From Candidatus Cloacimonadota bacterium (GTDB lineage: Bacteria; Cloacimonadota; Cloacimonadia; Cloacimonadales; Cloacimonadaceae), in assembly GCA_012839325.1 (NCBI GenBank), contig DUNQ01000111.1:1-47883 (forward strand): a stretch of DNA of 47,883 nt, in the 5' to 3' direction. Shown here in pieces: positions 10,648 through 32,816 of this stretch. The translations under genes and the position numbers were made by a program. Below the pieces are notes generated by a model that saw only the letters and a program-made list of their open reading frames with translations, did not search any database and was not told the origin of the DNA. Position 1 is the stretch's first letter. Every line of letters starts with the position of its first letter.

Positions 10648-10658
10648 CTATAACTCCA

Positions 10659-12578
<1,920 letters not shown>

Positions 12579-13086: not shown

Positions 13087-13129
13087 TTATAATAAAATGA
13101 CTTGAATGCCATATCATGGAGGTAACCCA

Positions 13130-15595
13130 ATGGCCAAATATCTCATTGTTGGCGGAGTAGCCGGCGGAGCAACAACAGCGGCGAGGCTGAGACGTCTCGA
13201 CGAACATGCAGAAATAATTATTTTTGAGCGTGGTAGCTACATTTCTTATGCGAACTGCGGACTGCCATATTATATCGGCGGGATCATCGAAGAGCGCGAA
13301 CAGCTTTTTGTTCAGACCCCTGAGACTTTTAAAGAAAACCTAAATATCGATGTTCGCATCGAGCAAGAAGTAATTTCCATTAATAGAGAAGAAAAATCTG
13401 TCATGGTTCGCCGCAAAGACGGCACCGAATATAGCGAAAGCTACGACAAATTGGTTCTCTCACCCGGCGCAGAGCCGCTGAGACCTCCAATTCCCGGTAT
13501 CAACGACGAAGCGATTTTCACTTTAAGAAACGTTCCCGATACCGATAGAATCAAGGAATACACCGAGACAAATACCGTGCGCCATGTAGTAATCGTGGGC
13601 GCAGGATTCATCGGACTGGAAATGGCGGAAAACTTCCACCATCTCGGCATCAAGGTGACAATCGTGGAGATGGCAGAACAGGTCATGACTCCGCTGGATT
13701 ATGAGATGGCAGCTTTGGTGCATCGCCACCTCAAGACCAAAAATGTAGAGTTCTATCTCAAAGATGCAGTAGGCTCTTTCGTTCGCGAACAGAGTGGCTT
13801 GCAGGTAAAGCTCAAAAGCGGTAGAGTGATCCCCACAGACATGGTGGTTCTCTCAATCGGTGTGCGTCCTGATAGCAAACTCGCTGAAGACGCAGGTTTG
13901 GAACTGGGCTTGAACAAAGGAATTCGCGTAAACGAACACCTTCAGACCAGTGATCCGGATATCTTTGCTTTGGGCGACGCCATTGTTTTCCCAAACCCCA
14001 TCACGGGTAAGGAAGGGCATACCTATCTTGCGGGACCTGCGAACAAGCAGGGTCGCATGGTGGCTTGTAATATAGTAAAGCCGGGAATTCGTAAATATAA
14101 AGGCAGTATTAATACTGCGATTGCAAAGGTTTTCGACGTTACAGTAGCCGCTACGGGTATCTCGGAAAAGACTCTTAAAGCCCTTGAAATGCCTTACGTT
14201 GCCTCGATTATCCACGCGGGTAATCATGCGGGATACTATCCCGGCGCAGAGGTGATGAGCATCAAGATAGTCTTTGATCCTGAAACGGGTAAACTCTTCG
14301 GCGCTCAGATCGTTGGATTTGAAGGAGTTGACAAGCGTATCGACATGCTTGCCCACATCCTCAAACACGGCGAGACCATCTATGAAATGCAGGAAATTGA
14401 ACACGCTTATGCACCGCCTTTCTCCAGCGCAAAAGATCCCGTAAACATTGCGGGAATGGCAGCCGAAAACATTGTCACCGGCAGGGTGAAGATCATTCAC
14501 TGGGAAGAACTTAGAGAGATGGATAAAAATGATTATTATCTCGTTGACGTTCGCACGCCGGATGAATATGCTTTAGGCGACATCGACGGTAGCACAAATA
14601 TCCCCTTGCAGGGCTTTAGAGACCAATTGCAGCGCATTCCAAAGGATAGGACGGTCATAGTGCATTGTGCCTCCGGATTGCGCTCTTATTTTGCCGCTCG
14701 CATTCTCATGCAAAATGGATATGACGATGTTTATAACCTCAGCGGCGGATATATCACCTATGAAACCGCAACTCAGAAACAGAGTAATGAAGATATATTC
14801 TCTCAAGAACACGTGGGAATCGACGACCGTGTCTATCAGGGCAAGATTGCCGTGGATTCTTTTGAAGGCTCGAACGTGGTGGAAGTTAATGCCACCGGCC
14901 TGCAATGCCCCGGACCTATCATGCGCCTGAAAACCGAGATGGATAAGCTCAATACCGGCGATATTATACAGATAACTGCCAATGATCCGGGCTTCCTGAA
15001 AGACGTTCCCGCATGGTCGAACATGACCGGGAATACCCTCCTCGGAGTGGAATTGCATGGTAAGAATATCGTTGCCGCGGTGCGTAAAGGCGGCGGAAAA
15101 GCTCCCGCTGTAACTGCTCAAGGCAGTAAAAATAAGACTCTTATTGTATTCAGCGATGATCTGGATCGCGCGCTTGCTTCCTTCGTGATCGCAAACGGCG
15201 CTGCATCAATGGGTAAGAAGGTCACTATGTTCTTCACTTTCTGGGGACTCAACGTGATCAAGAAACCGGGTGCGGATAAGAGCGGTAAAGACGGCATGAG
15301 TAAGATGTTTGGCATGATGTTGCCCGGCGGAGCTTCTAAGCTGGGGCTTTCCAAGATCAATCTTGGCGGCATGGGCGCAAGCATGATGCGCAGACGCATG
15401 AAAGAAAAGAATGTTGACTCTCTGGAAACGATGATCATGCAGGCAAGAAAAGCCGGCGTTGAGATGATCGCTTGCCAGATGAGCATGGATATAATGGGTG
15501 TTGAAGCTCATGAGTTTATCGATGGCGTGACCATCGGCGGGGTAGCCTCCTATCTCGAAGAAGCTGAAAAGAGCAATCTCAACCTCTTCATATAA
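13130..15595 (+). CDS. CoA-disulfide/polysulfide reductase fused to rhodanese, TusA and DsrE-like domains
   Basis: The product is 821 residues with four modules. Residues 1-450 are an FAD/NAD(P)H disulfide reductase of the CoA-disulfide reductase type: FAD motif GGVAGGATTAARLRR, single redox Cys43 in YANCGLPYY, NAD motif GAGFIGLEMAE, second FAD motif FALGDA. Next is a rhodanese domain with catalytic Cys513 (VHCASGLRS), a TusA/SirA domain with Cys593 (GLQCPGPIMRLK), and a C-terminal DsrE-type domain with Cys782 (MIACQMSMDIMG). Each module keeps its sulfur-handling Cys, so a persulfide relay within one chain is likely, for polysulfide or sulfur-transfer metabolism. The ATG at 13130 has GGAGGT seven bases upstream and places Cys43 as in known CoA-disulfide reductases; an in-frame ATG at 13106 is less likely. 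It is transcribed alone. Confidence 0.92.
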   Translation: MAKYLIVGGVAGGATTAARLRRLDEHAEIIIFERGSYISYANCGLPYYIGGIIEEREQLFVQTPETFKENLNIDVRIEQEVISINREEKSVMVRRKDGTEYSESYDKLVLSPGAEPLRPPIPGINDEAIFTLRNVPDTDRIKEYTETNTVRHVVIVGAGFIGLEMAENFHHLGIKVTIVEMAEQVMTPLDYEMAALVHRHLKTKNVEFYLKDAVGSFVREQSGLQVKLKSGRVIPTDMVVLSIGVRPDSKLAEDAGLELGLNKGIRVNEHLQTSDPDIFALGDAIVFPNPITGKEGHTYLAGPANKQGRMVACNIVKPGIRKYKGSINTAIAKVFDVTVAATGISEKTLKALEMPYVASIIHAGNHAGYYPGAEVMSIKIVFDPETGKLFGAQIVGFEGVDKRIDMLAHILKHGETIYEMQEIEHAYAPPFSSAKDPVNIAGMAAENIVTGRVKIIHWEELREMDKNDYYLVDVRTPDEYALGDIDGSTNIPLQGFRDQLQRIPKDRTVIVHCASGLRSYFAARILMQNGYDDVYNLSGGYITYETATQKQSNEDIFSQEHVGIDDRVYQGKIAVDSFEGSNVVEVNATGLQCPGPIMRLKTEMDKLNTGDIIQITANDPGFLKDVPAWSNMTGNTLLGVELHGKNIVAAVRKGGGKAPAVTAQGSKNKTLIVFSDDLDRALASFVIANGAASMGKKVTMFFTFWGLNVIKKPGADKSGKDGMSKMFGMMLPGGASKLGLSKINLGGMGASMMRRRMKEKNVDSLETMIMQARKAGVEMIACQMSMDIMGVEAHEFIDGVTIGGVASYLEEAEKSNLNLFI

Positions 15596-15673: not shown

Positions 15674-18520
15674 TTAGAGTTTGATCACCTTGATGGCTGC
15701 TTGGTTTTTGCCTTGCTTGGCTTGGATGAAATATATGCCGGCGGGCAGCTCTTTGCCTCTTTCGTCGCAGCCGTCCCAGCTATATTCACGTTTGTTTTTG
15801 GAAGCGTCTATCTTGCGAACCCTCTGTCCCTTAAGGTTATAGATGCCGATGGTGATATCTTCTTCGCCCATTTTACGTTTTAGGGCAAATCTTATGCTAT
15901 CTTTGAAAGGGTTTGGATATCCCGTGCTGAAATATAACTCGGCGTTCATGTATTTGCTGATGGGGCTATAGGTATTTATATAGGTTAAATAGATTTCACG
16001 CATAAAGGCTTTGGCTTGGTGGAGAACGATGTTAGAAAGAGGAAAGCTGAGGAGGAAGCTCTGACCTTTTCCATATTTATTTGCCACTCCCACAGCCATG
16101 TCTGAAAGCATTCCCGGCATAGTTTCGGGATCATGATCGGTCTGGTAACTATAGATCAGATCTGCACTGTCATCCAAATTATAAGCTTCCACGCGGAGGA
16201 TATGTTCGTCGAAATCATTGCTCAGATAGGGGTAGGGAGTAAGATCACCAAGGTCTGTCCAATGTGATTTTGCTTCCTTAAACAAGGTGGTGGCGTGATA
16301 GCGGACTCCTTCAATGCCAAATACTTTGCGGATAAATTCATCTTCGTCGTATTCTTTGGGATAGTGCACCTGAGGGTTGAGCATTCTGCTGGGGAAATAG
16401 CTGCTGAATATCACATTCCCGCCGCTTTTGATGTAGGGTTCCAATACGCTTTGAATTTCCATAAAGCTCGTGGGGTAGAAGCTCGCTCTATGCCAAAATA
16501 CTAAGTCGTTGCGGCATATGTCTTCCAGCATAAGGGGGCGTTCTAATGCGCTGAGATTGATGCGTGGGGTTGTGTAACTCCCCAAAAGAAGGTCATAGAA
16601 ATCACGTGAAGTTTCACCATCGGAGAGGGGTGAAATATCACCTTTGTTATTGCCTCTGTCGTCGTTTATAATGATTATGCCGGATCTGAAATCCATGGGG
16701 CGGGAACTGACTATGTCACAGGGTTCACTCTCGTTTCCGTCTTTGTCCACCGCGGTCACATAGAAGTAATAATAATATGGTTCTGCGTAATAGTTAAAGC
16801 TGTCTTTTATGTACTCGCAATCTGTTACAAATCCTTTATTTATATATACATTATCAAGGTTTATTGCCTTCATATATACGTGATAGCCGGCGAGGTCTAA
16901 TTCTTCGTTTGGCTCCCAGCTAAGTTTTATTGCGTTTAAGATTGGCTCGGCTTTGAGGCTTTGCACCTGATTGGGGATGTTATTGGGGGTGGCATATACA
17001 TTTAGCGCATAGCTTTCATGTCCAAAAGCATCTACTGCGGTGACGGCAAATTTGTAGCGCCTGCCTTCACTTAATCCGCTTACTATAAACTCCTGTTTAT
17101 CCGTGGCTTGAGGAGCGTTTAGGAGTATGTCTTCGTCTTCGGCGCCGTGGTATATTCTATAGCTGTATTCGGGCTGATCTTCTTTGATCGTCCAGGTGAG
17201 ATAGATGCTCTCGCCATTGCCCACATCGCGCGGGGTAAGAGACATCAGGGAAGGCGGCATATTCGCAACAGTGATGGCGGCGGCAAGCGAGCTGCGCACC
17301 ACGCGTGAGCAATACTCAGGATCGAGATTGATCACAAGGTCGCTATCGCTGTGATAGACGGGGCTGAATTCCTTTTCCATGTAGAATATCGAGGGGAAGC
17401 CGCGCACCCAATAGGCATAAGAGTCGCTGCTTGCACTGTTTAGGTTTCCAAGTTCTGCGCTTAGATTTCCATATTCTTGCGCGAGAGACACAGCGTGGGA
17501 TGCAATGTGCTCAGAGCCGGTGTAAGGTCTGATCTGCACGGTGTTTAGGTTTACATTGTTTGCCACCATGTCGTGATTTATATAAAGATAGATGTTCATG
17601 TCTTCATCAAGGCACTTCTTGGCGTCATAGTGAGAGCCGTAAAGACCGAATTCTTCGGCGGCAAAGGTGATGAAGCGGATGCTGCGCAGAGGTTGGAAGT
17701 TGTTTTCAAGCATCACTCGGGCGATCTCGATCGTTGCCGCTACTCCGGAGCCGTTGTCGTCTGCGCCGGGTGCATGAACCATGGGATTTGTGTATGTAAT
17801 GCTGTCGTGATGCGCGCCTATTACTATGTGTTCATCGGGGTAAAGGGAGCCGGGGATCATGCCTACCACGTTGTATTGGTCTCTTGCGTCGTAGTTTGTG
17901 TCCCAGTCAAATTCTTGGATTTCTACATCCGAGAGCCCTATGCGCTGGAAAGTATTCTTGATCCAGGTGGCTACTTCATAGCGATTGTCCGCAAGAGCGT
18001 AGCGGGTTTGCATGTCTTCTAAACTCTGTATGTGAGATTCTATGCTATCGGCTGACACTTGGTTCACGAGGTTTACTATCTCCGGCACGATGTCCTTTTG
18101 CTCCGGCAGTTTAAAGCTATATTTGCTCTCTATTATGGGCTGATAGTCCATGAGAACGTAGTCTGCATTGGTCTTTGTGCGCAGGGCGATCTCGTCTAAA
18201 TGGGTTGCAAAGAGGGCGGTATCTTTTTCGCTAAAGAGTAATCTGCCATGGGGGACAAGGGAAGTAAAGCCTTGGGAGGGTGTATCTTGGATGAGGTAAA
18301 GCTTTTCATCGTGAGCAAGCGGGGGGAGGGCATGGGCTTCGGGCGGCATCTCGCCATCGCTTCGGAAAAGAATAAAGTCATGATTCAGATATAGTATCTC
18401 GGCGCCGGCTTTCTTGAGGGTGTTTAGCGCGCCGGGATCTCGGCTGATAAAAAGATGCGGCGAGGCAAAGCCCGGGCTGAAAATTATTAGGCTGAGAATG
18501 ATGAGTATAGTTCTTTTCAT
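15674..18520 (-). CDS. Exported M28-family aminopeptidase with FN3 and C-terminal sorting domain
   Basis: The product is 948 residues. It starts with a Sec signal peptide (MKRTILIILSLIIFSPGFAS). The M28 zinc-peptidase domain follows: VIGAHHDS near 236, APGADDNGSGVAAT near 255 and FAAEEFGLYGS near 288 give the His/Asp/Glu-Glu metal and base residues. It is followed by FN3-like repeats (WEPNEELDLAGYHVY and similar), a Rossmann-like segment (IIIINDDRG ... GGNVIFSSYFPS), and a C-terminal sorting-type domain (YPNPFKDSIRF; GIYNLKGQRVRKID; LPAGIYFIQ). Such domains direct export by the type IX system in Bacteroidota relatives. The start at 18520 has AGGAG upstream; a longer ORF from 18562 would put the signal peptide 14 residues in. 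It probably digests external peptides. Confidence 0.9.
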   Translation of the reverse strand: MKRTILIILSLIIFSPGFASPHLFISRDPGALNTLKKAGAEILYLNHDFILFRSDGEMPPEAHALPPLAHDEKLYLIQDTPSQGFTSLVPHGRLLFSEKDTALFATHLDEIALRTKTNADYVLMDYQPIIESKYSFKLPEQKDIVPEIVNLVNQVSADSIESHIQSLEDMQTRYALADNRYEVATWIKNTFQRIGLSDVEIQEFDWDTNYDARDQYNVVGMIPGSLYPDEHIVIGAHHDSITYTNPMVHAPGADDNGSGVAATIEIARVMLENNFQPLRSIRFITFAAEEFGLYGSHYDAKKCLDEDMNIYLYINHDMVANNVNLNTVQIRPYTGSEHIASHAVSLAQEYGNLSAELGNLNSASSDSYAYWVRGFPSIFYMEKEFSPVYHSDSDLVINLDPEYCSRVVRSSLAAAITVANMPPSLMSLTPRDVGNGESIYLTWTIKEDQPEYSYRIYHGAEDEDILLNAPQATDKQEFIVSGLSEGRRYKFAVTAVDAFGHESYALNVYATPNNIPNQVQSLKAEPILNAIKLSWEPNEELDLAGYHVYMKAINLDNVYINKGFVTDCEYIKDSFNYYAEPYYYYFYVTAVDKDGNESEPCDIVSSRPMDFRSGIIIINDDRGNNKGDISPLSDGETSRDFYDLLLGSYTTPRINLSALERPLMLEDICRNDLVFWHRASFYPTSFMEIQSVLEPYIKSGGNVIFSSYFPSRMLNPQVHYPKEYDEDEFIRKVFGIEGVRYHATTLFKEAKSHWTDLGDLTPYPYLSNDFDEHILRVEAYNLDDSADLIYSYQTDHDPETMPGMLSDMAVGVANKYGKGQSFLLSFPLSNIVLHQAKAFMREIYLTYINTYSPISKYMNAELYFSTGYPNPFKDSIRFALKRKMGEEDITIGIYNLKGQRVRKIDASKNKREYSWDGCDERGKELPAGIYFIQAKQGKNQAAIKVIKL

Positions 18521-18611
18521 AGCTTCTCCTGTAAAATAAAGTGGGTCAAAGGCAGGACGCAAGAGCTGCGGAGACTTCTTTCATCGCTTTTAGTGAAAGG
18601 CTTTCTCCCAT

Positions 18612-18640
18612 AAAAAAAAGGGCAGCAATATTTGCAGCCC
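18612..18640 (-). terminator. Terminator of the nucleotidase operon
   Basis: On the minus strand GGGCTGCAA and TTGCTGCCC (plus 18620-18640) pair with one T-T mismatch and a 3-nt loop, then eight T (plus 18612-18619). The hairpin touches the stop codon of the nucleotidase gene and separates it from the M28 peptidase gene. Confidence 0.75.
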
Positions 18641-20295
18641 TATTCTTTCATCCAGCGTGCCTTTATAGAGTTATCGTCACGCTTCCAGCGATTGTCTATC
18701 TTGCTGGTGACGGGTGATTTGTTTTTAAAATAGTGCACGATTGCATCGCGCAGGTTAATCTGCTGATTGTTGATATCTTCTTGTGGGACGTTCATGAGCA
18801 GGGTGAGCCCGGCATTGCCTTGCATGAGGAAGTCTGTGGTGGCAACCGTGTAAATCTTGTCGGGGTCCCAGGGCTCTCCGCCTATCATGAGTGAGGTGAC
18901 GCGGTCGAAGCTTGCTCGTTTGCGTGAATAGACAACGTTTACTCCGCTCACGATTAGTCCGGCGCGGCTGCCTTCAACGCGGGTTTCGATGATGCGCTTG
19001 AGCAATCTGCCGTCGCACTGGAAGGTGATCAGCAGGTTGTCAAAGGGCATCACTTCAAAAACATCTCTATAGGTGACGGCGCCGTTTTTGATCTCGGCTC
19101 TTACTCCGCCTAAGTTCAGGAAGGAGAAGTCTGCGTCAACCATGTAGCGCATGGCGTCCACAATCATGTTTCCCATAGGGGATTGAGCGTCCACGTTCGT
19201 TCTGGAAAGGTGGCTGCCGGCATAGCCCACAACCTCGTCCATGCCTTCTTCGGCAATGCTTACATAGTGTTCAATCAGTTCGCTGGACTCGGGGTCGGGG
19301 AAGAATTGGTCTTCAAAAAGGGTGACCATTGCGCCTTCGCGGATGGCGGGTGTTTCCCAGCCGCTGACCGTCTTGGTTTCGGGGTCTATCTTCAGCGTGA
19401 TAATGCCTAAGTTCGAGCCATAGGCATAGCCTTGGATTACCATCGTGTGCGTTACGGGATCAATCCAGGGTTCGGGGAAGCCTTTATGGATGTGTCCGCC
19501 TATGAAGAGATCTATTCCATCCACTTCGCGGGCGAGTTCTTGGGCGTCGTATCCCCAATTCGCAGTGCGAGTGGGATAGCGCGGATTGCCCTTGGCATCA
19601 TAGCGGGAGAGATATCCGGCTTCCGGGTCGTAAGGAAGTCCGGCGTGTCCCAGCACGATTACTAAATCTACTTTCTCTTCTTCACGGAGAATGTTCACAT
19701 AGCGCGTAAGGGCTTCTTTCTCGTTTACAAACTTGATGCCTTTGATGTTTTCCGGGAAGCTCATCAGCTCTGTATCGGTCGTGGTCATGCCTAAAATGCC
19801 TATCTTGAGCCCCATCCTGTTCAGCACGATATAGGGCTCGATATAGGGGAGAAGTTCATCTGTTTCGGCGTCCACTACGTTGCAGGAGATGATGGGGAAC
19901 TCAGCCAGTTCGAGCGTGGGGATGAGTTCATCTTGCATGATGTCGAACTCGTGGTTGCCCAAGGTCATGGCGTCGTAGCCTATGAGGTTCATAAATTCAA
20001 TTACGGACTTGCCTTTGGTGACCGTTCCCACGGGGCGTCCTTGGAAGAAGTCGCCTGCGTCCAAGAGCAGCGATTCACGATTTGGCGAGTGCCAGCTTCT
20101 TATCTCTTTGATCAGAGTTGCAGCAGATGCACCACCGCCTAATTGAGGAGGAAACTCAGGGTTCATGAAGGTTGCTTGAGCGCGGTCAATTCCGCCGTGG
20201 ACGTCGTTCGACCAAATTATATCAAGACGCAGATCTTCCGCGAGAGCCATGCCCAGCGTAAGTATCAGCGCAATAATAATTATATACTTTTTCAT
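18640..20295 (-). CDS. Exported 5'-nucleotidase / metallophosphatase (UshA-like)
   Basis: The 551-residue product has a signal peptide (residues 1-19, cleavage after GMALA). The metallophosphatase domain shows the di-metal motifs Asp31-x-His33 (SNDVHGG), Asp82 (LLLDAGDFF) and GNHEFD (Asn114-His115), with the later His motifs LGHAGLPYD and IGGHIHKG. The C-terminal 5'-nucleotidase domain follows (NVDAQSPMGNMIVDAMR; LNLGGVRAEI; MPFDNLLITF). UshA-type enzymes strip phosphate from external nucleotides so the nucleoside can be taken up. It is the last gene of a tight operon after two outer-membrane proteins (16-base gap). A GAGGT site precedes the ATG. Substrate (5'-nucleotide or 2',3'-cyclic nucleotide) is not decided by the sequence. 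Confidence 0.92.
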   Translation of the reverse strand: MKKYIIIIALILTLGMALAEDLRLDIIWSNDVHGGIDRAQATFMNPEFPPQLGGGASAATLIKEIRSWHSPNRESLLLDAGDFFQGRPVGTVTKGKSVIEFMNLIGYDAMTLGNHEFDIMQDELIPTLELAEFPIISCNVVDAETDELLPYIEPYIVLNRMGLKIGILGMTTTDTELMSFPENIKGIKFVNEKEALTRYVNILREEEKVDLVIVLGHAGLPYDPEAGYLSRYDAKGNPRYPTRTANWGYDAQELAREVDGIDLFIGGHIHKGFPEPWIDPVTHTMVIQGYAYGSNLGIITLKIDPETKTVSGWETPAIREGAMVTLFEDQFFPDPESSELIEHYVSIAEEGMDEVVGYAGSHLSRTNVDAQSPMGNMIVDAMRYMVDADFSFLNLGGVRAEIKNGAVTYRDVFEVMPFDNLLITFQCDGRLLKRIIETRVEGSRAGLIVSGVNVVYSRKRASFDRVTSLMIGGEPWDPDKIYTVATTDFLMQGNAGLTLLMNVPQEDINNQQINLRDAIVHYFKNKSPVTSKIDNRWKRDDNSIKARWMKE

Positions 20296-20311
20296 CTTTT
20301 ACCTCAAAAGC

Positions 20312-21736
20312 TTAGAAGCTATAGGAGATGCCGACATTCATGGTGATGAAGCTCTCTTTCACCTTGTCGGGATTTCCCCAGTCTCTATCCACGAGATCAA
20401 TATATCCTCTTGGCCAGAGTGTGTAATTTGCAGAGCCGGTGTAGATTTTGTCATTATAATAGCTATCCGGGAAGAGATCTAACGCCTGATATTCGCGGAA
20501 GCCGTAGCCGAAGCCGAGATCTACATTCAGTCCTTTTGTGATCTCAAATCCGGAGCCGCCGGTGATCATGGGCGTGACGATCTTCTTTACCATGGGTTTG
20601 AGCGGATCGTTGCTCGTGTTCCCCTGTTCGTCAGGGAAGAAGAGGTAGCTATTTGTGGCTTGGAAGCCCAGGCGCAGGGGCATGCGATGGATCACGTGAT
20701 GCTCCACTCCGCCATAGAAGTTTACCACGTCGTCAAAGAGCTTGTCAACGCCGGAATATTGCTCGTATTCTACGTCAAAATTGAAGATAGTGCGGGTGAT
20801 GTTGCGCGGGAAATAGGAGAAGCCGAGACGCATCTTGGCAGGCAGATCAAAATCGCCTTTAAGATCGTTCTCGATATCGAGCTCATCTGTATTTCTATAT
20901 GCATCGCGGTGAATGGTCTCTTTACCGGTTTTATCCAAGGAGGTTTTGGGGCTGTATGTGAATCCCACACCGTAGCGAGGGCCTATACGCAATGCGGTCC
21001 CGAGGGTGAGCTGAGCTCCGGAAAGCTCCCACTTTGCCAAGCGGTTGTATTCGGGAAGCACGCCTTCACCGGTTTGTTCCACTGCCCAGTCCGTCCAGCG
21101 AATACCTTTTTCTTGTCTTACATCTGCCGAGAGTAGGGCATAATCCACGCCAATACTTGCTTCATAATAATCTGAATAAGCGAAATTCACTCCGAGTGCG
21201 AGCCCGTTCTTGGTGAGCGTTCCCTTGTTTTCAATATCGTTCTGGGCGATCTTTTCGGGATATCCGTCGTTATCGGTATTTCTATCGTTGCGGATCTCCT
21301 CGCGATATTTGCCGTCAAAACTGAGGTAAGGCGTGTGATATGAAGCCATTCCCACTTTGAAATAACCAAAGTTCAGCGCGCCGTAAGCTGCAAAGCCGAA
21401 GTCCGAATAATTGTTGATATTTGAAGCGAGAACGGAGTCATCTATATATACGTCAAATGAGTTGTATAACGGCACCATACGCACATCCTCGGCGCGATTG
21501 ATCATCCCGCTGAGATAGAGCCCGGCATTGCCTTTGAGCTGTGTGATATTCGCAGGATTGTGGATGATTCCACCGAGGCGAACGTTGTTATAAACTCCCG
21601 CGGAGCCCATTGCGAGCGAGCGGGCATCGAAAGCTTTGTAAGCATGTCCAAACTGAGCATCACTGATGCTGAAGCCAAAGAGCGCAGTGCTGATAAGCAG
21701 CATTGCAACGACGATCAAAGATTTATGTGATAACAT
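20312..21736 (-). CDS. Outer-membrane beta-barrel protein, FadL/PorV-like
   Basis: The 474-residue product has a signal peptide, then the motif AFDARSLAMGSAGVYNNVRLGGIIHNPANI. This arrangement (a Gly/Ala-rich start followed by a NPA(N/A) turn) is typical of the OmpP1/FadL/TodX and PorV families. Alternating strands end in aromatic residues throughout, and the chain ends in ITMNVGISYSF, the terminal-Phe barrel signature read by the BAM machinery. FadL members carry hydrophobic substrates; PorV serves type IX export. It lies 12 bases after the HhH-barrel gene and 16 before the nucleotidase gene, so a role in nucleotide or nucleic-acid uptake is possible but inferred. Confidence 0.8.
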   Translation of the reverse strand: MLSHKSLIVVAMLLISTALFGFSISDAQFGHAYKAFDARSLAMGSAGVYNNVRLGGIIHNPANITQLKGNAGLYLSGMINRAEDVRMVPLYNSFDVYIDDSVLASNINNYSDFGFAAYGALNFGYFKVGMASYHTPYLSFDGKYREEIRNDRNTDNDGYPEKIAQNDIENKGTLTKNGLALGVNFAYSDYYEASIGVDYALLSADVRQEKGIRWTDWAVEQTGEGVLPEYNRLAKWELSGAQLTLGTALRIGPRYGVGFTYSPKTSLDKTGKETIHRDAYRNTDELDIENDLKGDFDLPAKMRLGFSYFPRNITRTIFNFDVEYEQYSGVDKLFDDVVNFYGGVEHHVIHRMPLRLGFQATNSYLFFPDEQGNTSNDPLKPMVKKIVTPMITGGSGFEITKGLNVDLGFGYGFREYQALDLFPDSYYNDKIYTGSANYTLWPRGYIDLVDRDWGNPDKVKESFITMNVGISYSF

Positions 21737-21748
21737 GTTTCCTCCATA

Positions 21749-24511
21749 TTAGAAGCGATAATCAAGGGAGAGGCGGATCGTATTTTCGCTATGTTCGACA
21801 CGCTCGAAATAGGTGAGATGATCAGCCAAGTTGGGGTGATTCGGATCGTTGTTCTGACGAATCCTAAGTTCTTTATCCTGATAGGTCTTATTGCGGAACT
21901 TCAGGTTTAAATACATATTATTTGAGATGCGGCTGGAGATGGTGATCCAGGCTTTTGCGCCTTTTTCGCCCATGAAGTCAATCTCCATATCTTCCCAATC
22001 CCAATGCGAGATGCCGTGCCCATACCAATATAGGAACGAGCCTTGCAGCTTCAGCGCAGGAGAGAAGTTGTGGGTATAATTCACGCAGATATAATCGCCC
22101 GTCATCAGCGTTTGAGCGGCAGCCATGGAGTTGTTTCCTCCTTCGGCAGGCCAGGTGAGGTTTGTGTATGGCGGGCTTTTAACTGTGTTGTAGCGATATT
22201 CCAGCTCAAGGAAGTCGCGGTTTGAGAGGAAGGTTCTCACGGCGACGGTGTATTCATTTGTCTTCGAGACTCCTCTATCGGCGAGATCGTCATAGCGATT
22301 GACCTGATTCTTATATCTGATTCTCATCGCCAATTGGAAGAGCGGACGAAACTCCAATTCGCTTTGGAATCTCGCGCTGCGGCGTCCATCGCTAAGCCTT
22401 TCCCAGAGGTCGAGATAGCTGCGGCCGATGGTGAAATAGTTGTTGAACTTATAGCGCGTCTCAAAATAGACTCCCCTCTCCGGCTGCGATTGATTTGAAT
22501 TGTTAAAGATATCGCCGATTGTGGGATTGGTGAGCGCATAGACGTTCTTTTCCAGCATGGTGTCGTCATAGCGTTCATGCTCCGAGAAGCTGTTGCTATA
22601 AGGGTTGTCAAAACCTATGTCGTAGTTTCTATAAAGTGTAGTAAAATAAAGGTTTTCATATTGAGTGTGCGCGCTGATGAGATATGCTTTGGGGTCGTCT
22701 CCCAGCTTGAAATCGCTGCCGTTTATGCTCAGCTCGGCATATTCGCCTTGGATGGATGTATTGCCTATTACTGTTCCGCCGTCGAAGCCTATCACTCTGC
22801 GATAGTTGCGCGCATAGTTATCCGTGAGCGTGCCATACATGGATGATATCTCGGCATTCAACGCCTTTTGCAGCTTGGGATAGTTGTAGGAATCTCTTAA
22901 GAGCAGCGGGAACATATCTCTGAAATCGGGCGTTACGAAATGCGCATTGTCATAGAGCGCGGTGTAGGTGGTAAAGCCCAGCCTGGTGCCGATTATGGGG
23001 CTAAATTGCAGATGGGTTCCCCAGAGCTTTTCGTTCAGAGCATCTCTGCGAGTAGCGAGGTTGATATATGGCATGGCATAAGCGTTATAGGTCTGTCCCG
23101 AGCCGGATATGGGGTTCAATTGCTCGTTGAAATAAGCCTCTGCCTGCAGCAAGGTATCGTTATCATAAGGCAAGGTGGGATTGATATAGCTAAAGAACTT
23201 ACGTTTGTGTCCCACGATTGGATCGCCGTTTTCATCGGTGTAATGAGCTGTGCCATCGATGAGCACGTAATCTACATCGTTGTCATCACGGAAGATCTCA
23301 CGATTCTCTTTGTCTAACATTACATAGCTGCCATCGGGGTGCACGTAGGCGAGCGCGTCTTTATCATCTTGTGAAACAAAGAAGGACGCACCGAAATTGG
23401 GATGAGAAAACTCTACCGCAGCGCCCCTGAGCGCATATTCCTTGGTGCGTGAGAGGTCGGGCGTGATGCCCATGATGCGCTTGCTAAAGCCAAATCCCGT
23501 CTTACGCGCGGAATAATAGTCGGTGTTTTCCATCACCAGTCCTTCGCCGAATGTTGCGCGATAGTGTCCCAGATAGGTCTTGAGGTTGCTGTTTGTCAGT
23601 CCCGGCAGCCTGGTGTTTTCATAGCCGACATAATACTTGGCATCGTTTATAAAGTCTCGCGCATTGCTCTTTAAAAGCCCCGCATCCGCTTTCTGTGAGA
23701 AGTGCATGATCCCCATCTTATAATTGCTGCCATAACGCATTCTCATCTTGAGCATGAGATCCGGCTGAATCTGATCCAAATCGAAGTATCCCCAATAGGA
23801 TAGACGCTTGTCGTGGGGGATGGTCACCCAGCTATTGGCATGCGTTTTGGGAACAAATGATTCCTTGAGCATGTTTTGCTGAGCTTCGTCGAAATAGCGC
23901 GTGTAATACTGCATTGAGATGTCAAACATCAGCCTGTTCTTCACCGGCGGCTCTTTGTAATACACATAGTTTCTGAGGTTTGTGTAGCCATAGTGAGAGA
24001 GCCCCATGGTGTTTCGCAGGTCGCGCATTTCAGAGATGGTGTCCCCGCGCGCAACACGCCTGAGTATGGCAACTGCATCCACTCCCGAGACGTTCGGCAA
24101 ACTCACCAGATCGTCATAATGCATACGGTTAACGTTCTGCGGCGTCATGAGATAATCTTCCCAGACGTCTGCCATTCCTTCGCTGGAGCCTTCACTGCTA
24201 TCAAGCCTTTCCAATAGCTCTTGAACCTCGCTGCGTCTCATTGCCACGTCGTCGCTTTCTATGTGCATAGATACGATTACCAAGGGCTTGAGGCGATTGA
24301 GTGTGTGCTGGTCGATGGAGGGGATTTCTCTTAGGTCATAGATGCTGTGCAAAATCTTCACAAAGGTTCGATATTCAAAGATGTCGCGTGCTTGCACTTC
24401 AGAGATGGGCAGCTCTCTGATCTCATCCAAAGTGGCTGTATTTAAGTCCACTTTAGCGCCGAGAATGCCCAAGACTAAAATGCTCAACAAAATCAAAACG
24501 AGCTTTTTCAT
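21749..24511 (-). CDS. Helix-hairpin-helix (ComEA-like) protein with a large predicted outer-membrane barrel
   Basis: The 920-residue product has a signal peptide (1-18) and then ComEA-like helix-hairpin-helix motifs: VDLNTATLDEIRELPISE near 20-40 and MHYDDLVSLPNVSGVDAVAI near 128-150. HhH pairs bind DNA without sequence preference. The remaining ~700 residues are rich in aromatic residues and alternating strands (YYTRYFDEAQ, MRMRYGSNYKM, LEYRYNTVK) and end in IRLSLDYRF, a terminal-Phe barrel signature. The arrangement suggests a barrel with a periplasmic DNA-binding plug. AAGGA precedes the ATG. It is the first gene of the operon with the FadL/PorV-like protein and the nucleotidase. Such HhH-barrel proteins are known in Bacteroidota-like genomes but, as far as I recall, without an assigned function. 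Confidence 0.8.
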   Translation of the reverse strand: MKKLVLILLSILVLGILGAKVDLNTATLDEIRELPISEVQARDIFEYRTFVKILHSIYDLREIPSIDQHTLNRLKPLVIVSMHIESDDVAMRRSEVQELLERLDSSEGSSEGMADVWEDYLMTPQNVNRMHYDDLVSLPNVSGVDAVAILRRVARGDTISEMRDLRNTMGLSHYGYTNLRNYVYYKEPPVKNRLMFDISMQYYTRYFDEAQQNMLKESFVPKTHANSWVTIPHDKRLSYWGYFDLDQIQPDLMLKMRMRYGSNYKMGIMHFSQKADAGLLKSNARDFINDAKYYVGYENTRLPGLTNSNLKTYLGHYRATFGEGLVMENTDYYSARKTGFGFSKRIMGITPDLSRTKEYALRGAAVEFSHPNFGASFFVSQDDKDALAYVHPDGSYVMLDKENREIFRDDNDVDYVLIDGTAHYTDENGDPIVGHKRKFFSYINPTLPYDNDTLLQAEAYFNEQLNPISGSGQTYNAYAMPYINLATRRDALNEKLWGTHLQFSPIIGTRLGFTTYTALYDNAHFVTPDFRDMFPLLLRDSYNYPKLQKALNAEISSMYGTLTDNYARNYRRVIGFDGGTVIGNTSIQGEYAELSINGSDFKLGDDPKAYLISAHTQYENLYFTTLYRNYDIGFDNPYSNSFSEHERYDDTMLEKNVYALTNPTIGDIFNNSNQSQPERGVYFETRYKFNNYFTIGRSYLDLWERLSDGRRSARFQSELEFRPLFQLAMRIRYKNQVNRYDDLADRGVSKTNEYTVAVRTFLSNRDFLELEYRYNTVKSPPYTNLTWPAEGGNNSMAAAQTLMTGDYICVNYTHNFSPALKLQGSFLYWYGHGISHWDWEDMEIDFMGEKGAKAWITISSRISNNMYLNLKFRNKTYQDKELRIRQNNDPNHPNLADHLTYFERVEHSENTIRLSLDYRF

Positions 24512-24708: not shown

Positions 24709-26328
24709 TTATCCCATGAAGGGATATTCGTAGTCATGCGGAGGGTTGAGGTTTTCTTTTACCGAGCGAGCGGAAACCCAGCGCTGGAGGTTCTGAGGAG
24801 CTCCTGCCTTGTCGTTTGTGCCGGAAGCTCTTGCACCGCCGAAGGGTTGTTGACCCACCACTGCACCGGTAGGTTTGTCGTTGATATAGAAGTTGCCTGC
24901 GCTGTGTCTGAGCGCGCAAAATGCGTGGTTCACAGCCTGACGATCCTGACCGAAGATTGCACCGGTGAGTGCATAAGGCGAGGTCTCATCACAGAGGCGA
25001 AGGGTGTCTTCAAAGTCCTCATCTTTATATACATATACCGTGAGTACGGGGCCAAAGATTTCCTCTTCCATGGATTTGTAGTGAGGATTGGTGGTCTTGA
25101 TGATGGTGGGCTCGATGAAATAGCCTTTGGAGTCATCATATCCGCCGCCTGCAATGATCTCGGCATCTTTTGCAGCCTTGGCATGGTCTATATAACCTTT
25201 GATATTATTGAAGCTGCTCTGATCGATCACGGCGCCCATGAAGTTCGTGAAATCAGTGATGTCGCCCATCTTGACCGTGGGAAGCATCTCTTGCATGTGT
25301 TTCCACCATTCGTCGTAGATGGATTCCGGGATATACATTCTGGAGGCTGCGCTGCACTTTTGGCCTTGGAATTCAAAGGCACCGCGCAGGGCTGCGACTG
25401 CCAGCGCGCGAACATCGGATGAGCTGTGTGCAAAGATGAAGTCCTTGCCACCGGTTTCGCCCACGATGCGCGGATAAGATTTGTATTTGGCAACGTTATT
25501 TGCACTACGTTTCCAGATATCCTGGAAGACCTCTGTGCTGCCGGTGAAGTGAATGCCGGCAAGTTCCGGGGAATCCACAATCGTGTCTCCTATCACTGCG
25601 CCTGAGCCGGGAACGAAGTTGATCACGCCATCCGGCAAACCGGCTTCCATGAGCAATTTCATCAGGAAATATCCGCTATATACGGATGAGCTGGCAGGTT
25701 TCCAGAGCACTGTGTTACCCATGAGCGCGGGTGATGAGGGCAGGTTTCCGGCGATCGAGGTGAAGTTGAAAGGAGTGATCGCAAAGATGAATCCTTCCAG
25801 CGCGCGATATTCGGAATAGTTCCATTCGCCTTTGGGAGAATACATGGGCTGTTGCTGATAGATTTGCTGGGCAAAATAAGTGTTAAAGCGCCAGAAGTCA
25901 GCGAGTTCACAGATCGCATCGATCTCGGATTGGTGAGCGGTCTTGCTCTGTCCGAGCATGGTGATAGCGTTAAACTTATAACGATACTTTGTGGTAAGCA
26001 ATTCTGCAGCTTTAAGGAAGATTGCACTTCTATGGCTGAAGGGCATGTTTTCCCAGTCTTTACGAGCTTTGCAGGATGCCTCGATGGCGTCCCTGATTTC
26101 CTTTTCGCCCACCTTATGGTAGGTTGCCAGGATGTGCTGATGATCGTGCGGGCAAACGCATTTGCCGGTGGATCCGGTGAAGACTTCTTTACCATTTATA
26201 ATGGCGGGGATTTCAAACTGTTGACTTGCAAGCTCCTTCAGGGCTTCTTCGAGGAGCTCCCTGTCTTTTGTTCCCGGTGCATAGGAATATACCGGTTCAT
26301 TTTGAGGTATTGGAACTGAATGGAACAT
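24709..26328 (-). CDS. 1-pyrroline-5-carboxylate / L-glutamate gamma-semialdehyde dehydrogenase
   Basis: The 539-residue product is an aldehyde dehydrogenase of the P5CDH type (RocA/ALDH4 group), oxidising glutamate semialdehyde to glutamate with NAD in proline, ornithine or arginine breakdown. It shows the NAD-binding FTGSTEVFQDIW, the general-base Glu291 (VGETGGKDF) and the catalytic Cys325 (GQKCSAASR). The N-terminal QNEPVYSYAPGTKDRELL and the ending PHDYEYPFMG are characteristic of this subgroup. AGGAG lies upstream of the ATG. It stands alone, back to back with the lysine cluster, which fits an amino-acid fermenter. No proline dehydrogenase is nearby. Confidence 0.92.
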   Translation of the reverse strand: MFHSVPIPQNEPVYSYAPGTKDRELLEEALKELASQQFEIPAIINGKEVFTGSTGKCVCPHDHQHILATYHKVGEKEIRDAIEASCKARKDWENMPFSHRSAIFLKAAELLTTKYRYKFNAITMLGQSKTAHQSEIDAICELADFWRFNTYFAQQIYQQQPMYSPKGEWNYSEYRALEGFIFAITPFNFTSIAGNLPSSPALMGNTVLWKPASSSVYSGYFLMKLLMEAGLPDGVINFVPGSGAVIGDTIVDSPELAGIHFTGSTEVFQDIWKRSANNVAKYKSYPRIVGETGGKDFIFAHSSSDVRALAVAALRGAFEFQGQKCSAASRMYIPESIYDEWWKHMQEMLPTVKMGDITDFTNFMGAVIDQSSFNNIKGYIDHAKAAKDAEIIAGGGYDDSKGYFIEPTIIKTTNPHYKSMEEEIFGPVLTVYVYKDEDFEDTLRLCDETSPYALTGAIFGQDRQAVNHAFCALRHSAGNFYINDKPTGAVVGQQPFGGARASGTNDKAGAPQNLQRWVSARSVKENLNPPHDYEYPFMG

Positions 26329-26719
26329 CTTTTCTCCTTATATATTCGTTTTTCATTTCAAAATCTTTAGTCGGCGTAAAGTGCATAATGATTTCAAATA
26401 TAGCACATAAAGCCGATATGAAGCGATTTAAAGCTTTGTGGACAGTCTAATTTGTCCCTGATTTTTGGTCAAGCTTTGTATAATACTTTCTTTCTTTTGC
26501 CTTTGTTTTTCGCTTTTTTCTGTATATATCTTCGGCGATATTATAGTTATCAAATCTCCACGCTGTATGCCTAATACAGGCTGTAATTAATAGCTAAAGC
26601 AATAGAAAGCCCGATTGCGGCAAAAACTTTTATAGTTGACATTTTCTTAAAGAACAAAATAGTGGGTAAACTGATATAAATACATAAAAATAATATAGCT
26701 TAGATGCCTGGAGGTATTT
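26329..26719 (+). other. Divergent intergenic region between glutamate-semialdehyde dehydrogenase and kdd genes
   Basis: 391 AT-rich bases with no visible gene. It contains an imperfect dyad TAATACAGG/CTGTAATTA (26572-26589), a possible operator, and a perfect -35-like TTGACA (26636-26641) with only a poor -10 (TAGTGG, 26660-26665). GGAGGT (26710-26715) is the kdd ribosome-binding site. I see no lysine-riboswitch-like structure. Confidence 0.6.
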
Positions 26720-27778
26720 ATGAAAACTGGCGGATGTCGCTATGGAACCCATCGCGTGGTGGAACCGCAGGGCGTTTTGCCCCAACCCGCGAACGTATTG
26801 AACAATGATATGACTCAGATCTGGGATAACGAACTTTTGATAGATGTTATCCGTTTGAACGTAGACAGTGCTTCTTTCCATCAGATCAAAAACAAGCTTA
26901 TTGATCAAGGACACAAAGATATTGAAAAAGCCTTTGGCGAGCACGCAATAGAGCTCACAGATCGCACCGGAAAGCACAAAAATGAAGATACCGGCAGCGG
27001 TGGAATGCTCATCGGACGCGTGGCAAAGATCGGCCCAAACTTTGAAATGAAAGACCAGATTGAAGTGGGCGATAAAGTTGCCAGCTTGGTCTCGCTTTCA
27101 CTCACCCCGCTCAAAATCAACAAGGTCAAGAAAGTTCTCTTAGACAAAGACCAAGTAGAGATCGAAGGGCAAGCAATTCTCTTTTCCAGCGGCATTTATG
27201 CCAAGCTTCCGGACGATATGGATGAAAACCTCGCGCTTTCAGTTCTGGACGTAGCCGGCGCTCCTGCACAGGTGGAACGCTTGGTAAAACCCGGAGACAA
27301 CGTAGTAATCATCGGCGCAAACGGTAAGAGCGGTGTGCTTTGCAACGCAGTAGCCAAAGAGCGTGCCGGAGTGGCAGGAAAGGTAATAGGCGTAGTGCGT
27401 AATCCTAACTACTTTGACACACTTAGAGCCACCGGCTGTGATGAAGTTGTCCTCGCCGGAGCAACCGACGCAATCACAATCAGAAATGAAGTTGCCCGCC
27501 TCACCGATGGCGAGATGGCAGACGTGGTGATCAACGTCGTAAATATCGAAGACTCCGAACTTCCCACCATTATGGCTGCAAAAGACCGCGGAGTGATCTA
27601 CTTCTTCTCCATGGCAACCTCCTTTACCAAGGCTGCTTTGGGCGCAGAAGGAATAGGCGCGGACGTGGACATGATTCTCGGAAACGGCTATGCACGCAAT
27701 CACGCTGCAGTTTCCATAGATCTGCTTCGTCGCAACCCCGTTCTCATGAAGCTTTTCCAAGAAAGATACATAGACTAA
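26720..27778 (+). CDS. kdd: L-erythro-3,5-diaminohexanoate dehydrogenase
   Basis: The 352-residue product resembles Kdd, which oxidatively deaminates L-erythro-3,5-diaminohexanoate to 5-amino-3-oxohexanoate with NAD(P) in lysine fermentation. The start MKTGGCRYGTHRVVEPQGVLPQPA, the SGGMLIGRVAKIG segment and the later Rossmann motif VVIIGANGKSGVLCNAVAKE fit the family and its length. GGAGGT lies four bases before the ATG. kamA follows 31 bases after, so the two catalyse steps of one pathway. The lysine 5,6-aminomutase (kamD/kamE) that must act between them is not in the window. Confidence 0.9.
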   Translation: MKTGGCRYGTHRVVEPQGVLPQPANVLNNDMTQIWDNELLIDVIRLNVDSASFHQIKNKLIDQGHKDIEKAFGEHAIELTDRTGKHKNEDTGSGGMLIGRVAKIGPNFEMKDQIEVGDKVASLVSLSLTPLKINKVKKVLLDKDQVEIEGQAILFSSGIYAKLPDDMDENLALSVLDVAGAPAQVERLVKPGDNVVIIGANGKSGVLCNAVAKERAGVAGKVIGVVRNPNYFDTLRATGCDEVVLAGATDAITIRNEVARLTDGEMADVVINVVNIEDSELPTIMAAKDRGVIYFFSMATSFTKAALGAEGIGADVDMILGNGYARNHAAVSIDLLRRNPVLMKLFQERYID

Positions 27779-27809
27779 ATATAATAAAGACAAGATATAA
27801 GGAGCAATT

Positions 27810-29054
27810 ATGAGCACGATAAAGATTCGCTCAATTGCCACCGACAAAGAGTGGAATGATTGGCATTGGCAGCTGAGGAACCGCATCACTGATGTGGACG
27901 AGCTGCGTAAATATATCAAACTCTTGCCGGAGGAAGAAGCCATATTTGCCAAAGAAGGCTTCTCGTTCCGTATGGCAATCACCCCCTACTACCTCTCTTT
28001 GATTGATCCCGAAAATCCCAACGATCCCATTCGTATGCAAGCAATTCCGCGCATTGAAGAAAGTGATATCGGAGTTTCGGACATGGCAGACCCGCTCAGC
28101 GAGGATGAAGATGCGCCCGTCCCGGGAATGACGCACCGCTATCCCGACAGGGTTTTGCTGCTCTTAACCGATCAATGCGCAATGTATTGCCGCCATTGCA
28201 CGCGCAGACGCAAAGCCGGCGAGCACGATGCGCCCATGCCGAAAGAGAATGTGGATCAAGCTATCGAATATATCCGCAATCATCCGGAGATTCGCGACGT
28301 CATCCTTTCCGGCGGAGACCCGCTCACCCTTGGTGATGAAAGATTGGATGAGATCCTCTCAAAGCTCAGCGAAATAGAGCACTTGGACATTGTTCGTCTC
28401 GGCAGTCGCACGCCCGTCGTCTTGCCCATGCGCTTCACAGATTCGCTACTGAATGTACTGAAGAAATACCCCTTTGTGTGGCTAAATACGCATTACAACC
28501 ATGCGCAGGAGATCAGCGATGAGGCAGCCGATGCCTTGGCTCGCATCGCCGGCGCGGGTGTTCCCTTGGGGAATCAAAGCGTTCTGCTGAAAGGGGTTAA
28601 CGACCATCCTGAAGTGATGAAAGCTCTGGTGCATAAGCTCGTGCGCAACCGCGTGCGTCCTTATTATATATACCAATGCGATCTCTCGGAAGGAATCACC
28701 CATTTCCGCACTCCCATTTCGCGCGGCATAGAGATCATCGAAGCCTTGCGCGGACACACCAGCGGGCTCTGCGTTCCCACCTTTGTAGTGGACGCTCCCG
28801 GCGGCGGCGGAAAGATTCCGGTTATGCCAAACTATGTGATTTCACAGATGCCCGGAAGAGTGATCTTGCGCAACTATGAAGGCTTTATCGCCAGCTACAC
28901 CGAGCCGGAATTTGAGCCTCAGAAAGATGAAGATTACACCGGACTCAGCCCCAAAGAAAGGGAAAGCTGTGAAGGCGTGATGAGCTTGCTCAAAGGCCGC
29001 CATGTGGCAATAGGCCCGGCTGAAACAAGGCGGAACAAGCGTCGTAAAGACTAA
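27810..29054 (+). CDS. kamA: L-lysine 2,3-aminomutase
   Basis: The 414-residue radical-SAM/PLP enzyme converts L-lysine to L-beta-lysine. The [4Fe-4S] cluster cysteines are Cys123, Cys127 and Cys130 (CAMYCRHC). The PLP lysine is Lys335 in GGGGKIPVMPNY. Asp291 (QCDLS) and Asp328 (VVDAPGG) match the aspartates that hold the lysine side-chain amine in the clostridial enzyme, so lysine is favoured over glutamate as substrate. AAGGAG stands before the ATG. The neighbours kdd and the KamB-like gene place it in lysine fermentation rather than in beta-lysine osmolyte synthesis, where ablB would be expected. Confidence 0.95.
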   Translation: MSTIKIRSIATDKEWNDWHWQLRNRITDVDELRKYIKLLPEEEAIFAKEGFSFRMAITPYYLSLIDPENPNDPIRMQAIPRIEESDIGVSDMADPLSEDEDAPVPGMTHRYPDRVLLLLTDQCAMYCRHCTRRRKAGEHDAPMPKENVDQAIEYIRNHPEIRDVILSGGDPLTLGDERLDEILSKLSEIEHLDIVRLGSRTPVVLPMRFTDSLLNVLKKYPFVWLNTHYNHAQEISDEAADALARIAGAGVPLGNQSVLLKGVNDHPEVMKALVHKLVRNRVRPYYIYQCDLSEGITHFRTPISRGIEIIEALRGHTSGLCVPTFVVDAPGGGGKIPVMPNYVISQMPGRVILRNYEGFIASYTEPEFEPQKDEDYTGLSPKERESCEGVMSLLKGRHVAIGPAETRRNKRRKD

Positions 29055-29077
29055 CAATACAGTTAGATATAAGTAAT

Positions 29078-30070: not shown

Positions 30071-30073
30071 TCT

Positions 30074-32229: not shown

Positions 32230-32793
32230 CGCCCGATCGCTCCTAAAGATAAAGCAAAACAACAGCTATATATACGCCTTAAACCTGCAGCATGGATTTA
32301 AGGCGTATTTTTCTGTAGCACCATTTTATCTGAAAGCCACACGACAAGAGCGCATGCAGCAGATACAGCTCTGCCTTGTGGCTTTCACAATCACAATTAG
32401 CCTTAATTTTTCACAAATTTTCACAACTATACACTTATAAAAGAACTATAGAGTTTCGGCTGTTCTCACCATCAAATTTCGATTGGTGAAAAGAACCCTC
32501 TACTATTATATAGGAGCCCAAAACCCAAAATTATGGCCAAAAACGCGATTTATTTTTCATCTTGAAAATAGTCAGTTTTTTGAAAAGGGCTTAACACTAT
32601 GAATGAGCATGCTTTCCGAAGATGGTAAAAAGCGAAAGATTCTTTTGAGTCAGAAAATGTTATGTAAACTTGTAGCAATATTGCTGCATTTGTTTTTACT
32701 AAAAATCAGATTATTGGGCAGTCTTTACAGATTTAACTTGCCAAATTTGCCAAAGAATATTTTTTAGGAGACAAATGTTTTCGGACGGTGGTT
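32230..32793 (+). other. Long intergenic region with hairpins before the sorting-domain protein
   Basis: About 560 bases without a convincing gene. After the M23 terminator, GAAAGCCACA (32332-32341) pairs with TGTGGCTTTC (32377-32386), and GAGC (32348-32351) with GCTC (32368-32371). No U-tract follows, so this is a structured element rather than a terminator. A looser hairpin is at 32463-32497 and a perfect 12-bp palindrome AGCAATATTGCT at 32674-32685. The second half is markedly AT-rich. Confidence 0.55.
32272..32312 (+). terminator. Terminator of the kdd-kamA-M23 operon
   Basis: TACGCCTTAAA (32273-32283) and TTTAAGGCGTA (32297-32307) form a perfect 11-bp stem, extended by an A-T pair, followed by TTTTT (32308-32312). 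It is 43 bases after the M23 stop. Confidence 0.88.
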
Positions 32794-32816
32794 ATGAAAA
32801 GAATATTTCTGATTAG
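32775..32816 (+). other. Possible 13-codon leader ORF overlapping the next gene
   Basis: AGGAG (32766-32770) stands four bases before ATG at 32775, which opens MFSDGGYEKNISD and stops at 32816, inside the next gene in another frame. The ATG of that gene (32794) has no good site of its own. The short ORF may couple translation, or may be chance. Confidence 0.2.

Follow-up and report, generated by a model that had tools for sequence, protein, structure and literature searches.

A Conserved Outer-Membrane System Linked to Type IX Secretion

The window analyzed here is a stretch of 47,883 nucleotides (contig DUNQ01000111.1 of assembly GCA_012839325.1) from a Candidatus Cloacimonadota bacterium. 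It carries three adjacent genes, which encode a helix-hairpin-helix (HhH) protein with a large outer-membrane beta-barrel (920 amino acids, aa), a FadL-fold barrel (474 aa), and an exported 5'-nucleotidase (551 aa). These three genes belong to a widely conserved outer-membrane system, which has at least five parts and is linked to the type IX secretion system (T9SS), since partner genes recur with the HhH-barrel gene and the barrel occurs only in genomes that encode the T9SS translocon SprA. An earlier note on this DNA, made from the sequence alone, had proposed a system of three parts, to which a PorV-like protein and a large secreted OB-fold/LTD protein have to be added.

The three genes had been read as one operon with gaps of 12 and 16 bases and a single terminator, and this is confirmed by the open reading frames (ORFs), the gaps, and a hairpin followed by eight U residues. 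All three proteins start with signal-peptide-like stretches. The terminator consists of an imperfect hairpin (18640-18620) and the U8 tract, with a folding energy of -19 kcal/mol (z -2.5) that was equalled by 3 of 200 shuffled sequences; it was not listed by a consensus terminator scan, probably because the stem contains a mismatch. The upstream gene is set apart from the operon by its own terminator-like hairpin (24692-24666). Promoter-like sites around the operon were no more frequent than in shuffled sequence.

The HhH-barrel was found in 115 of 124 Cloacimonadota genomes, including 67 of the 70 better ones, essentially in single copy, whereby multiple barrel rows per genome are mostly split matches. 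Within 62 Cloacimonadota loci of named records, the FadL-like gene follows the barrel gene in 56 of the 57 loci with sufficient room and the nucleotidase gene in 46 of 48; the loci that lack one or the other are L080, L073, and L089. Unlike the operon genes, the genes flanking the operon in the window are mostly not kept, which confirms that the operon genes stay together more than expected by chance. A profile search of 386 genomes detected the barrel in 70 of the 74 Cloacimonadota genomes that are at least 90% complete, with at least two of the 70 being partial. Negative were G049 and G060 as well as G069 and G081, the latter two with HhH-scale matches only. Outside the phylum the barrel is present in 32 of 312 genomes, which fall into 20 families by the labels of the tool. 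The phylum of genome G431 stands out with 22 of 24 genomes (G442 has no match and G449 an HhH-scale match only). In the loci outside Cloacimonadota that offer room, the FadL-like gene follows the barrel gene in 22 of 31 cases and the nucleotidase gene in 16 of 28, whereby the weak FadL-like match in L128-L130 was found only in a separate comparison. The gene order is therefore kept across Cloacimonadota and in 32 genomes beyond the phylum, and not among close strains only.

The association with T9SS emerged from the same genomes. SprA is encoded by all 74 Cloacimonadota genomes. Outside the phylum it was detected (E ≤ 1e-30) in 75 of 312 genomes, among them all 32 with the barrel, and none of the other 237, SprA-negative genomes has the barrel; the genomes count as independent in this comparison, whose significance is therefore inflated by common descent. 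Not all SprA-positive genomes have the barrel, which is absent from those with the strongest SprA matches (G306, G422, G202, and G328).

PorV-Like and OB-Fold/LTD Partners

Outside Cloacimonadota, 28 of 30 loci with sufficient room have a gene of approximately 290 codons ahead of the barrel gene, and 25 of 28 have one for a large secreted protein. The product of the smaller gene probably belongs to the PorV/PorQ family: NF033709 was matched by 31 of 31 aligned proteins at E ≤ 0.01 (best 1.3e-27), although the score in the one full NF033709 table was 75 of 90 bits and thus below the cut-off, and the match in the PDB is PorV (E 1.1e-9). Domain analysis of 26 large upstream proteins (E ≤ 0.01) yielded an OB-fold (PF01336) in 22, FlgD_ig in 16, LTD in 12, DUF5689 in 10, and Por_Secre_tail in 5, compared to 4 with an OB-fold, 7 with LTD, and 21 with Por_Secre_tail among 27 further tailed proteins from these loci, a control set that includes some extra tailed genes of the same operons. 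By Fisher's test the OB-fold is enriched (p 3e-7) and Por_Secre_tail is rarer (p 3e-5) in the upstream proteins, whereas LTD alone is not specific because it is also present in controls. Both sets were compiled without L105:4832 and L121:3620, which are probably upstream partners themselves, and the upstream set also without the contig-cut partners of L071, L074, and L079 and the partner of L116, which the ORF filter had masked. The profile of the large family matches the N-termini of the EEP-type proteins 9sf8/9sf9. Delivery of these proteins to the surface by T9SS is predicted from their tail domains.

The upstream proteins share an unusual C-terminal tail (consensus GxYICHLE...PIVVGTxL) instead of the usual T9SS type A tail. 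It may act as a signal to which the PorV-like partner docks.

Within Cloacimonadota, the partner genes are linked to the barrel gene in a minority of loci with room (PorV-like 8 of 42, large protein 7 of 39), and the barrels of these loci are all less than about 50% identical to that of the window. A close PorV-like orthologue is nevertheless encoded by 64 of the 74 genomes, with E ≤ 1e-84 compared to 1e-37 for the next paralogues. In the window's genome the pair is located on contig C63, where the PorV-like gene follows, after 11 bp, the gene of a 470-aa protein of the large family (L135:6811-8223). This protein scores 206 bits against the family profile, and its only Pfam match is FlgD_ig. 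Neighbors of the pair are genes for LspA, DksA/TraR, purine nucleoside phosphorylase (PNP), DivIVA, and thymidine kinase. Nine of the 64 loci with such an orthologue were inspected by eye, and a PNP-like gene was seen in 9/9 and a thymidine-kinase-like gene in 5/9, whereby both assignments were Pfam-checked in the locus of the window's genome (L135). In L135 (4395-9375), a conserved block runs DivIVA - PNP - DksA/TraR - LspA - OB/LTD-family protein - PorV-like protein - small protein, and the small protein (about 95-115 aa) recurs in most partner loci inspected.

Properties of the Three Operon Proteins

As the earlier note had suggested, the 920-aa protein combines an HhH domain with a predicted barrel. 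HHH_3 (PF12836) was matched at residues 20-77 with 41.6 bits, compared to a Pfam cut-off of 27, and the AlphaFold2 model, which was built from 51 aligned sequences (pLDDT 78, pTM 0.76), has helices up to about residue 190 and then about 25 strands through to the C-terminus, so that the alternative of no barrel did not hold. The nearest folds of the barrel by Foldseek and VIA-align, with the VIA-align rows for ushers, porins, and MtrB being read, are the chaperone-usher pores FimD/PapC (Z 16-17; for FimD Z 17.1, rmsd 5.4, and 366 aligned of 463), closely followed by Occ porins and MtrB. In the model these matches show a large barrel and not a function. Unlike FimD and PapC, the 920-aa protein has no usher family among its Pfam matches at E ≤ 1, and the sequence identity is about 10%. 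Sequence searches found solved relatives (EEPD1 and ComEA) for the HhH part only, and the nearest named relative of the whole protein, with 92% identity, comes from a Cloacimonetes metagenome-assembled genome. With ComEA the protein shares an HHH_3 domain after a signal peptide. ComEA, in contrast, is small, has GxG hairpins, and lacks a barrel, and the curated ComEA models remained below cut-off for the 920-aa protein, TIGR01259 by far (25.8 of 152.35 bits) and TIGR00426 with 19.2 of 53.1 bits. The charge of the barrel lumen was estimated by strand parity as 32 K/R and 20 D/E among 151 inward residues; this weakly positive value was not used, the parity being uncertain.

The assignment of the second protein as a FadL/PorV-like barrel is borne out by its model. 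The window protein itself matches no Pfam family, but 27 of 49 aligned orthologues matched PF03349 (Toluene_X) with E-values of 0.1 or less, the best being 1.2e-11, and a profile search with the protein led to TbuX, BamG, and PorV. Its model (pLDDT 84) was matched by Foldseek to BamG from three beta-barrel assembly machinery (BAM) complexes, with E-values from 1.2e-16 (9hiv_F) to 5.8e-15, and to FadL (1t16, 1.5e-14). With TM-scores of 0.58-0.61 on the query, the predicted fold is a 14-strand barrel with an N-terminal hatch. In the BAM structures 9HIV and 9HJM, BamG is described as a FadL homologue bound to BamA (PMC12578637). The window's operon would resemble this Bacteroidota complex in that a 14-strand FadL-fold barrel partners another outer-membrane barrel; here, the partner is the large HhH-barrel and not BamA, and the window protein matches no BamG model. 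In a sister genome (L031, 10776-12388) the FadL-like gene is apparently split in two frames, with a 393-aa ORF and matches running to 12388.

The third protein proved to be an exported 5'-nucleotidase, as claimed: PF02872 and PF00149 are both matched above their cut-offs, the N-terminus is signal-peptide-like, and the metal ligands are intact and invariant in 45 of 45 Cloacimonadota. Profile matches include 3ivd (E 1.4e-76), CD73, and UshA, whereas the UshA equivalog NF007109 was not reached (202.6 of 600 bits). Outside the phylum, L128-L130 encode short copies without several of the metal ligands in the alignment, which may for this reason be another metallophosphoesterase.

Scavenging of Extracellular Nucleic Acid as a Tentative Function

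Our tentative reading, the best supported of those considered here but given a little less than an even chance, is that the system serves the scavenging of extracellular nucleic acid, most likely DNA, as a source of phosphorus, nitrogen, carbon, and nucleosides. It is based on gene content, co-conservation, predicted folds, the intact metal site, and the confinement to SprA genomes. From there we infer a complex, its substrate, and the direction of transport as well as each step of the following mechanism. The T9SS-secreted OB-fold/LTD protein, encoded on another contig here, would bind nucleic acid at the cell surface and would be kept beside the HhH-barrel by the PorV/PorQ-family partner. 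The barrel of about 25 strands would admit the polymer or its fragments to the periplasm, with the FadL-fold barrel acting either as an accessory subunit, as BamG does for BamA, or as a product channel. Nucleases would cut the polymer, and the periplasmic 5'-nucleotidase would strip the phosphate, so that nucleosides could cross the inner membrane.

Several neighbors are consistent with a nutrient role. In three genomes of one genus (L128-L130), a gene for an exported PLD-family protein is located between the FadL-like and nucleotidase genes (PLDc_2 E 2.3e-23, scanned in the copy of L128). Its curated matches include NucT, below the cut-off (50.2 of 211 bits). NucT of Helicobacter pylori is a PLD-family nuclease that has been implicated in purine salvage and transformation (PMC5714352). 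The likeness to NucT ends there, as the models stay far below cut-off and the window's own locus has no PLD gene. Upstream of the barrel in other groups there are Ugp-like importers; all four of the binding proteins tested have UgpB as their best match, although below cut-off. Published DNases offer parallels to the upstream partner. The DNase ExeM likewise combines LTD with OB-folds, the OB region being described as crucial for DNase activity (PMC6085458), and both LTD and HhH are reported as extra domains of secreted DNases (PMC4486849). The DNA-degradation loci reported for Ca. Izemoplasma pair an LTD/nuclease protein with other genes for DNA use, with nucleotidases being part of this lifestyle (PMC8289736). 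ExeM/Xds-type DNases and the Izemoplasma loci resemble the present system by a large secreted protein that carries LTD and OB-folds and by nucleotidases and nucleoside use nearby; they differ in that the 26 scanned upstream proteins have no nuclease domain and outer-membrane barrels are present instead.

A number of observations weigh against nucleic-acid scavenging. One concerns the HhH domain, for which the earlier note had assumed ComEA-like DNA binding. The GxG hairpins of HhH proteins contact the DNA backbone, but at the four hairpins of the HhH-barrel GxG occurs in only 0, 1, 0, and 6 of 83 members (7/332 in all), and a canonical ComEA with GIG at four hairpins is encoded separately in the window's genome. 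The idea of a DNA clamp was rejected on this census, and a structural or docking function is the likelier one for the HhH part. Its median net charge of -7 points in the same direction but says little, because the true ComEA domains of the genome reach only +1 and -1, and net charge was dropped as a test of DNA binding. As for the nucleotidase, the GGDG motif, which binds ribose in CD73 and UshA, reads GN[A/S]GL in all 45 Cloacimonadota copies. Of 17 aligned copies from outside the phylum, 13 have a residue at the position of the Asp, and in none of them is it Asp; with this position lost, the substrate may not be an ordinary nucleotide. Outside the phylum, moreover, 12 of 28 loci lack the nucleotidase gene. 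No nuclease domain was found in the 26 upstream proteins scanned, the 470-aa protein of the window's genome has no Pfam OB-fold match, and the adjacency of thymidine kinase and PNP may be incidental because DivIVA, DksA, and LspA mark a housekeeping block. Neither a competence nor a nuclease family recurs among 65 other co-directional neighbors in other groups, where parts of ABC importers are the most frequent families. These 65 were scanned out of 83 neighbor ORFs; the remainder comprises the rows of L104, L129, and L130, which are near copies of L103 and L128, a PAS kinase of L126 that was scanned separately, and a 127-aa ORF that runs off the end of the L119 stretch. Finally, 72 of 74 genomes encode secretins and 101 of 121 Cloacimonadota have ComEC, so that the classical hardware for DNA uptake exists apart from the operon. 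Of the earlier proposal of DNA use or uptake, the nutrient role keeps its support from the OB/LTD, PorV-like, PLD, thymidine kinase/PNP, and Ugp-like partners, while its basis in DNA binding by the HhH domain does not stand.

A rival explanation is a T9SS-associated complex for surface display or secretion, without a role in nucleic-acid use. Here, the barrel and the PorV/FadL proteins would export or anchor the tailed LTD/OB protein, in the manner of SprA-PorV or PorP-like proteins. The confinement of the barrel to SprA-positive genomes (32/32 outside the phylum), the constant PorV/PorQ-family partner (31/31 aligned), the ushers as closest folds (FimD Z 17.1), and the unusual C-terminus of the tailed protein (Por_Secre_tail in 5/26 versus 21/27 others) would all suit such a complex. 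It leaves unexplained the nucleotidase, which is kept in 46 of 48 Cloacimonadota loci, and the PLD and Ugp-like neighbors, and with SprA the translocon is already available in 74 of 74 genomes. We regard this explanation as rather unlikely.

Less likely still is the scavenging of organophosphates other than nucleic acid, in which the surface binder, pores, and phosphatase would serve a Ugp-type importer by taking phosphate from glycerophospho-, sugar-nucleotide, or lipid-derived substrates. UgpB/UgpA/UgpE-like genes do lie upstream in several groups, UDP-sugar hydrolases are members of the 5'-nucleotidase family, the ribose motif GGDG has given way to GNxG, and a FadL fold, as modeled, would suit lipid-like ligands. 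The UgpB-like cluster, however, is present in 5 loci only, other genes stand beside the window's operon, and the OB-fold enrichment of the surface protein is left unexplained.

We consider it improbable that the system is the outer-membrane entry gate for natural transformation, handing DNA to ComEA and ComEC: although ComEC is widespread in the phylum and accompanies a canonical ComEA in the window's genome, and although 10 of 26 upstream proteins contain DUF5689, the secretins that usually form the DNA pore are nearly universal, the operon holds no competence gene, and the HhH hairpins are degenerate. The closest parallel is Riemerella anatipestifer, where four non-classical genes are essential for natural transformation (PMC8459023); they include genes for a DUF5689 protein, for the barrel next to it, and for an HhH protein. 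RA0C_RS04915/04920/02645 resemble the present system in that a DUF5689 surface protein, a large barrel, and an HhH protein act on DNA at the outer membrane. The Riemerella barrel, in contrast, bears CarboxypepD_reg and not HhH, the HhH protein is separate, and the pair comes without a FadL, PorV-like, or nucleotidase gene. Locus L154 of G422 has a Riemerella-like arrangement with a barrel, a DUF5689 protein, and a divergent EEP nuclease next to each other; its barrel is not detectably related to that of the window, and its DUF5689 protein aligns weakly. Homology to this barrel type was not detected: hhalign gave a probability of 0.05% against L154:8423-11302, a value that leaves room for remote homology given a single sequence on that side. 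As far as tested, the sequences suggest that the analogy is one of parts and not of descent.

Feature Coordinates and Neighboring Genes

Table 1. Position of the operon and its elements in the window.
Feature	Position	Strand	Basis
HhH and large outer-membrane beta-barrel gene	21749..24511	-	ORF, 920 aa, signal peptide, HHH_3 E 1.4e-10
Regions of the barrel protein	helical HhH, residues ~20-190; ~25-strand barrel, residues ~192-920		model
Gap between barrel and FadL-like genes, 12 bp	21737..21748	-	
FadL-fold outer-membrane barrel gene	20312..21736	-	ORF, 474 aa, signal peptide
Gap between FadL-like and nucleotidase genes, 16 bp	20296..20311	-	
Exported 5'-nucleotidase gene (Metallophos and 5_nucleotid_C)	18640..20295	-	551 aa; metal ligands intact; GGDG replaced by GNAG
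Intrinsic-terminator-like hairpin and U8 tract	18612..18640	-	starts on last base of the nucleotidase stop codon

The window contains further genes around the operon. Directly behind the operon terminator there is an M28 peptidase gene with a T9SS sorting tail (15674-18562, minus strand), whose position is kept only in the closest relative, and an M1 peptidase carrying such a tail is encoded at 34453-37302 (plus strand). The region 24709-34359 comprises a P5C dehydrogenase gene (TIGR01236 above cut-off), followed on the opposite strand by genes for a zinc-type dehydrogenase and a lysine 2,3-aminomutase, and looks like a lysine-fermentation cluster. At 13106-15595 (plus strand) an 829-aa fusion of pyridine-nucleotide-disulfide-oxidoreductase, rhodanese, TusA, and DsrE-like domains is encoded, and at 38126-40255 (plus strand) a 709-aa protein with two stretches of DUF1538, an uncharacterised family. 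Genes of the gyrA and gyrB type are located at 8083-12557 (minus strand) with 11 bp between them.

Implications for Cloacimonadota and Other T9SS-Bearing Groups

The earlier note knew of no name for its three-part system, and none was found in the sequence families or the open-licence literature searched, with subscription journals mostly outside that search. A more specific version of nucleic-acid scavenging is that the system constitutes an outer-membrane nucleic-acid importer of an undescribed kind, independent of pili and secretins, which we consider doubtful. In such an importer, a T9SS-displayed OB-fold/LTD receptor would pass captured DNA via the PorV-family partner to the barrel of about 25 strands with its built-in helical HhH module, and a dedicated nucleotidase would break it down. 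It is an open question how a polymer such as DNA passes the outer membrane when no pilus secretin is involved, and most T9SS-bearing phyla beyond Bacteroidota are represented by genomes only. In this context, a barrel with fixed partners that is present in 70 of 74 Cloacimonadota genomes and, in a second phylum, in 22 of 24 provides a strong handle, as it offers a candidate machine, a candidate receptor, and a candidate enzyme. If true, Cloacimonadota and many further groups with T9SS would have this importer as a core trait.

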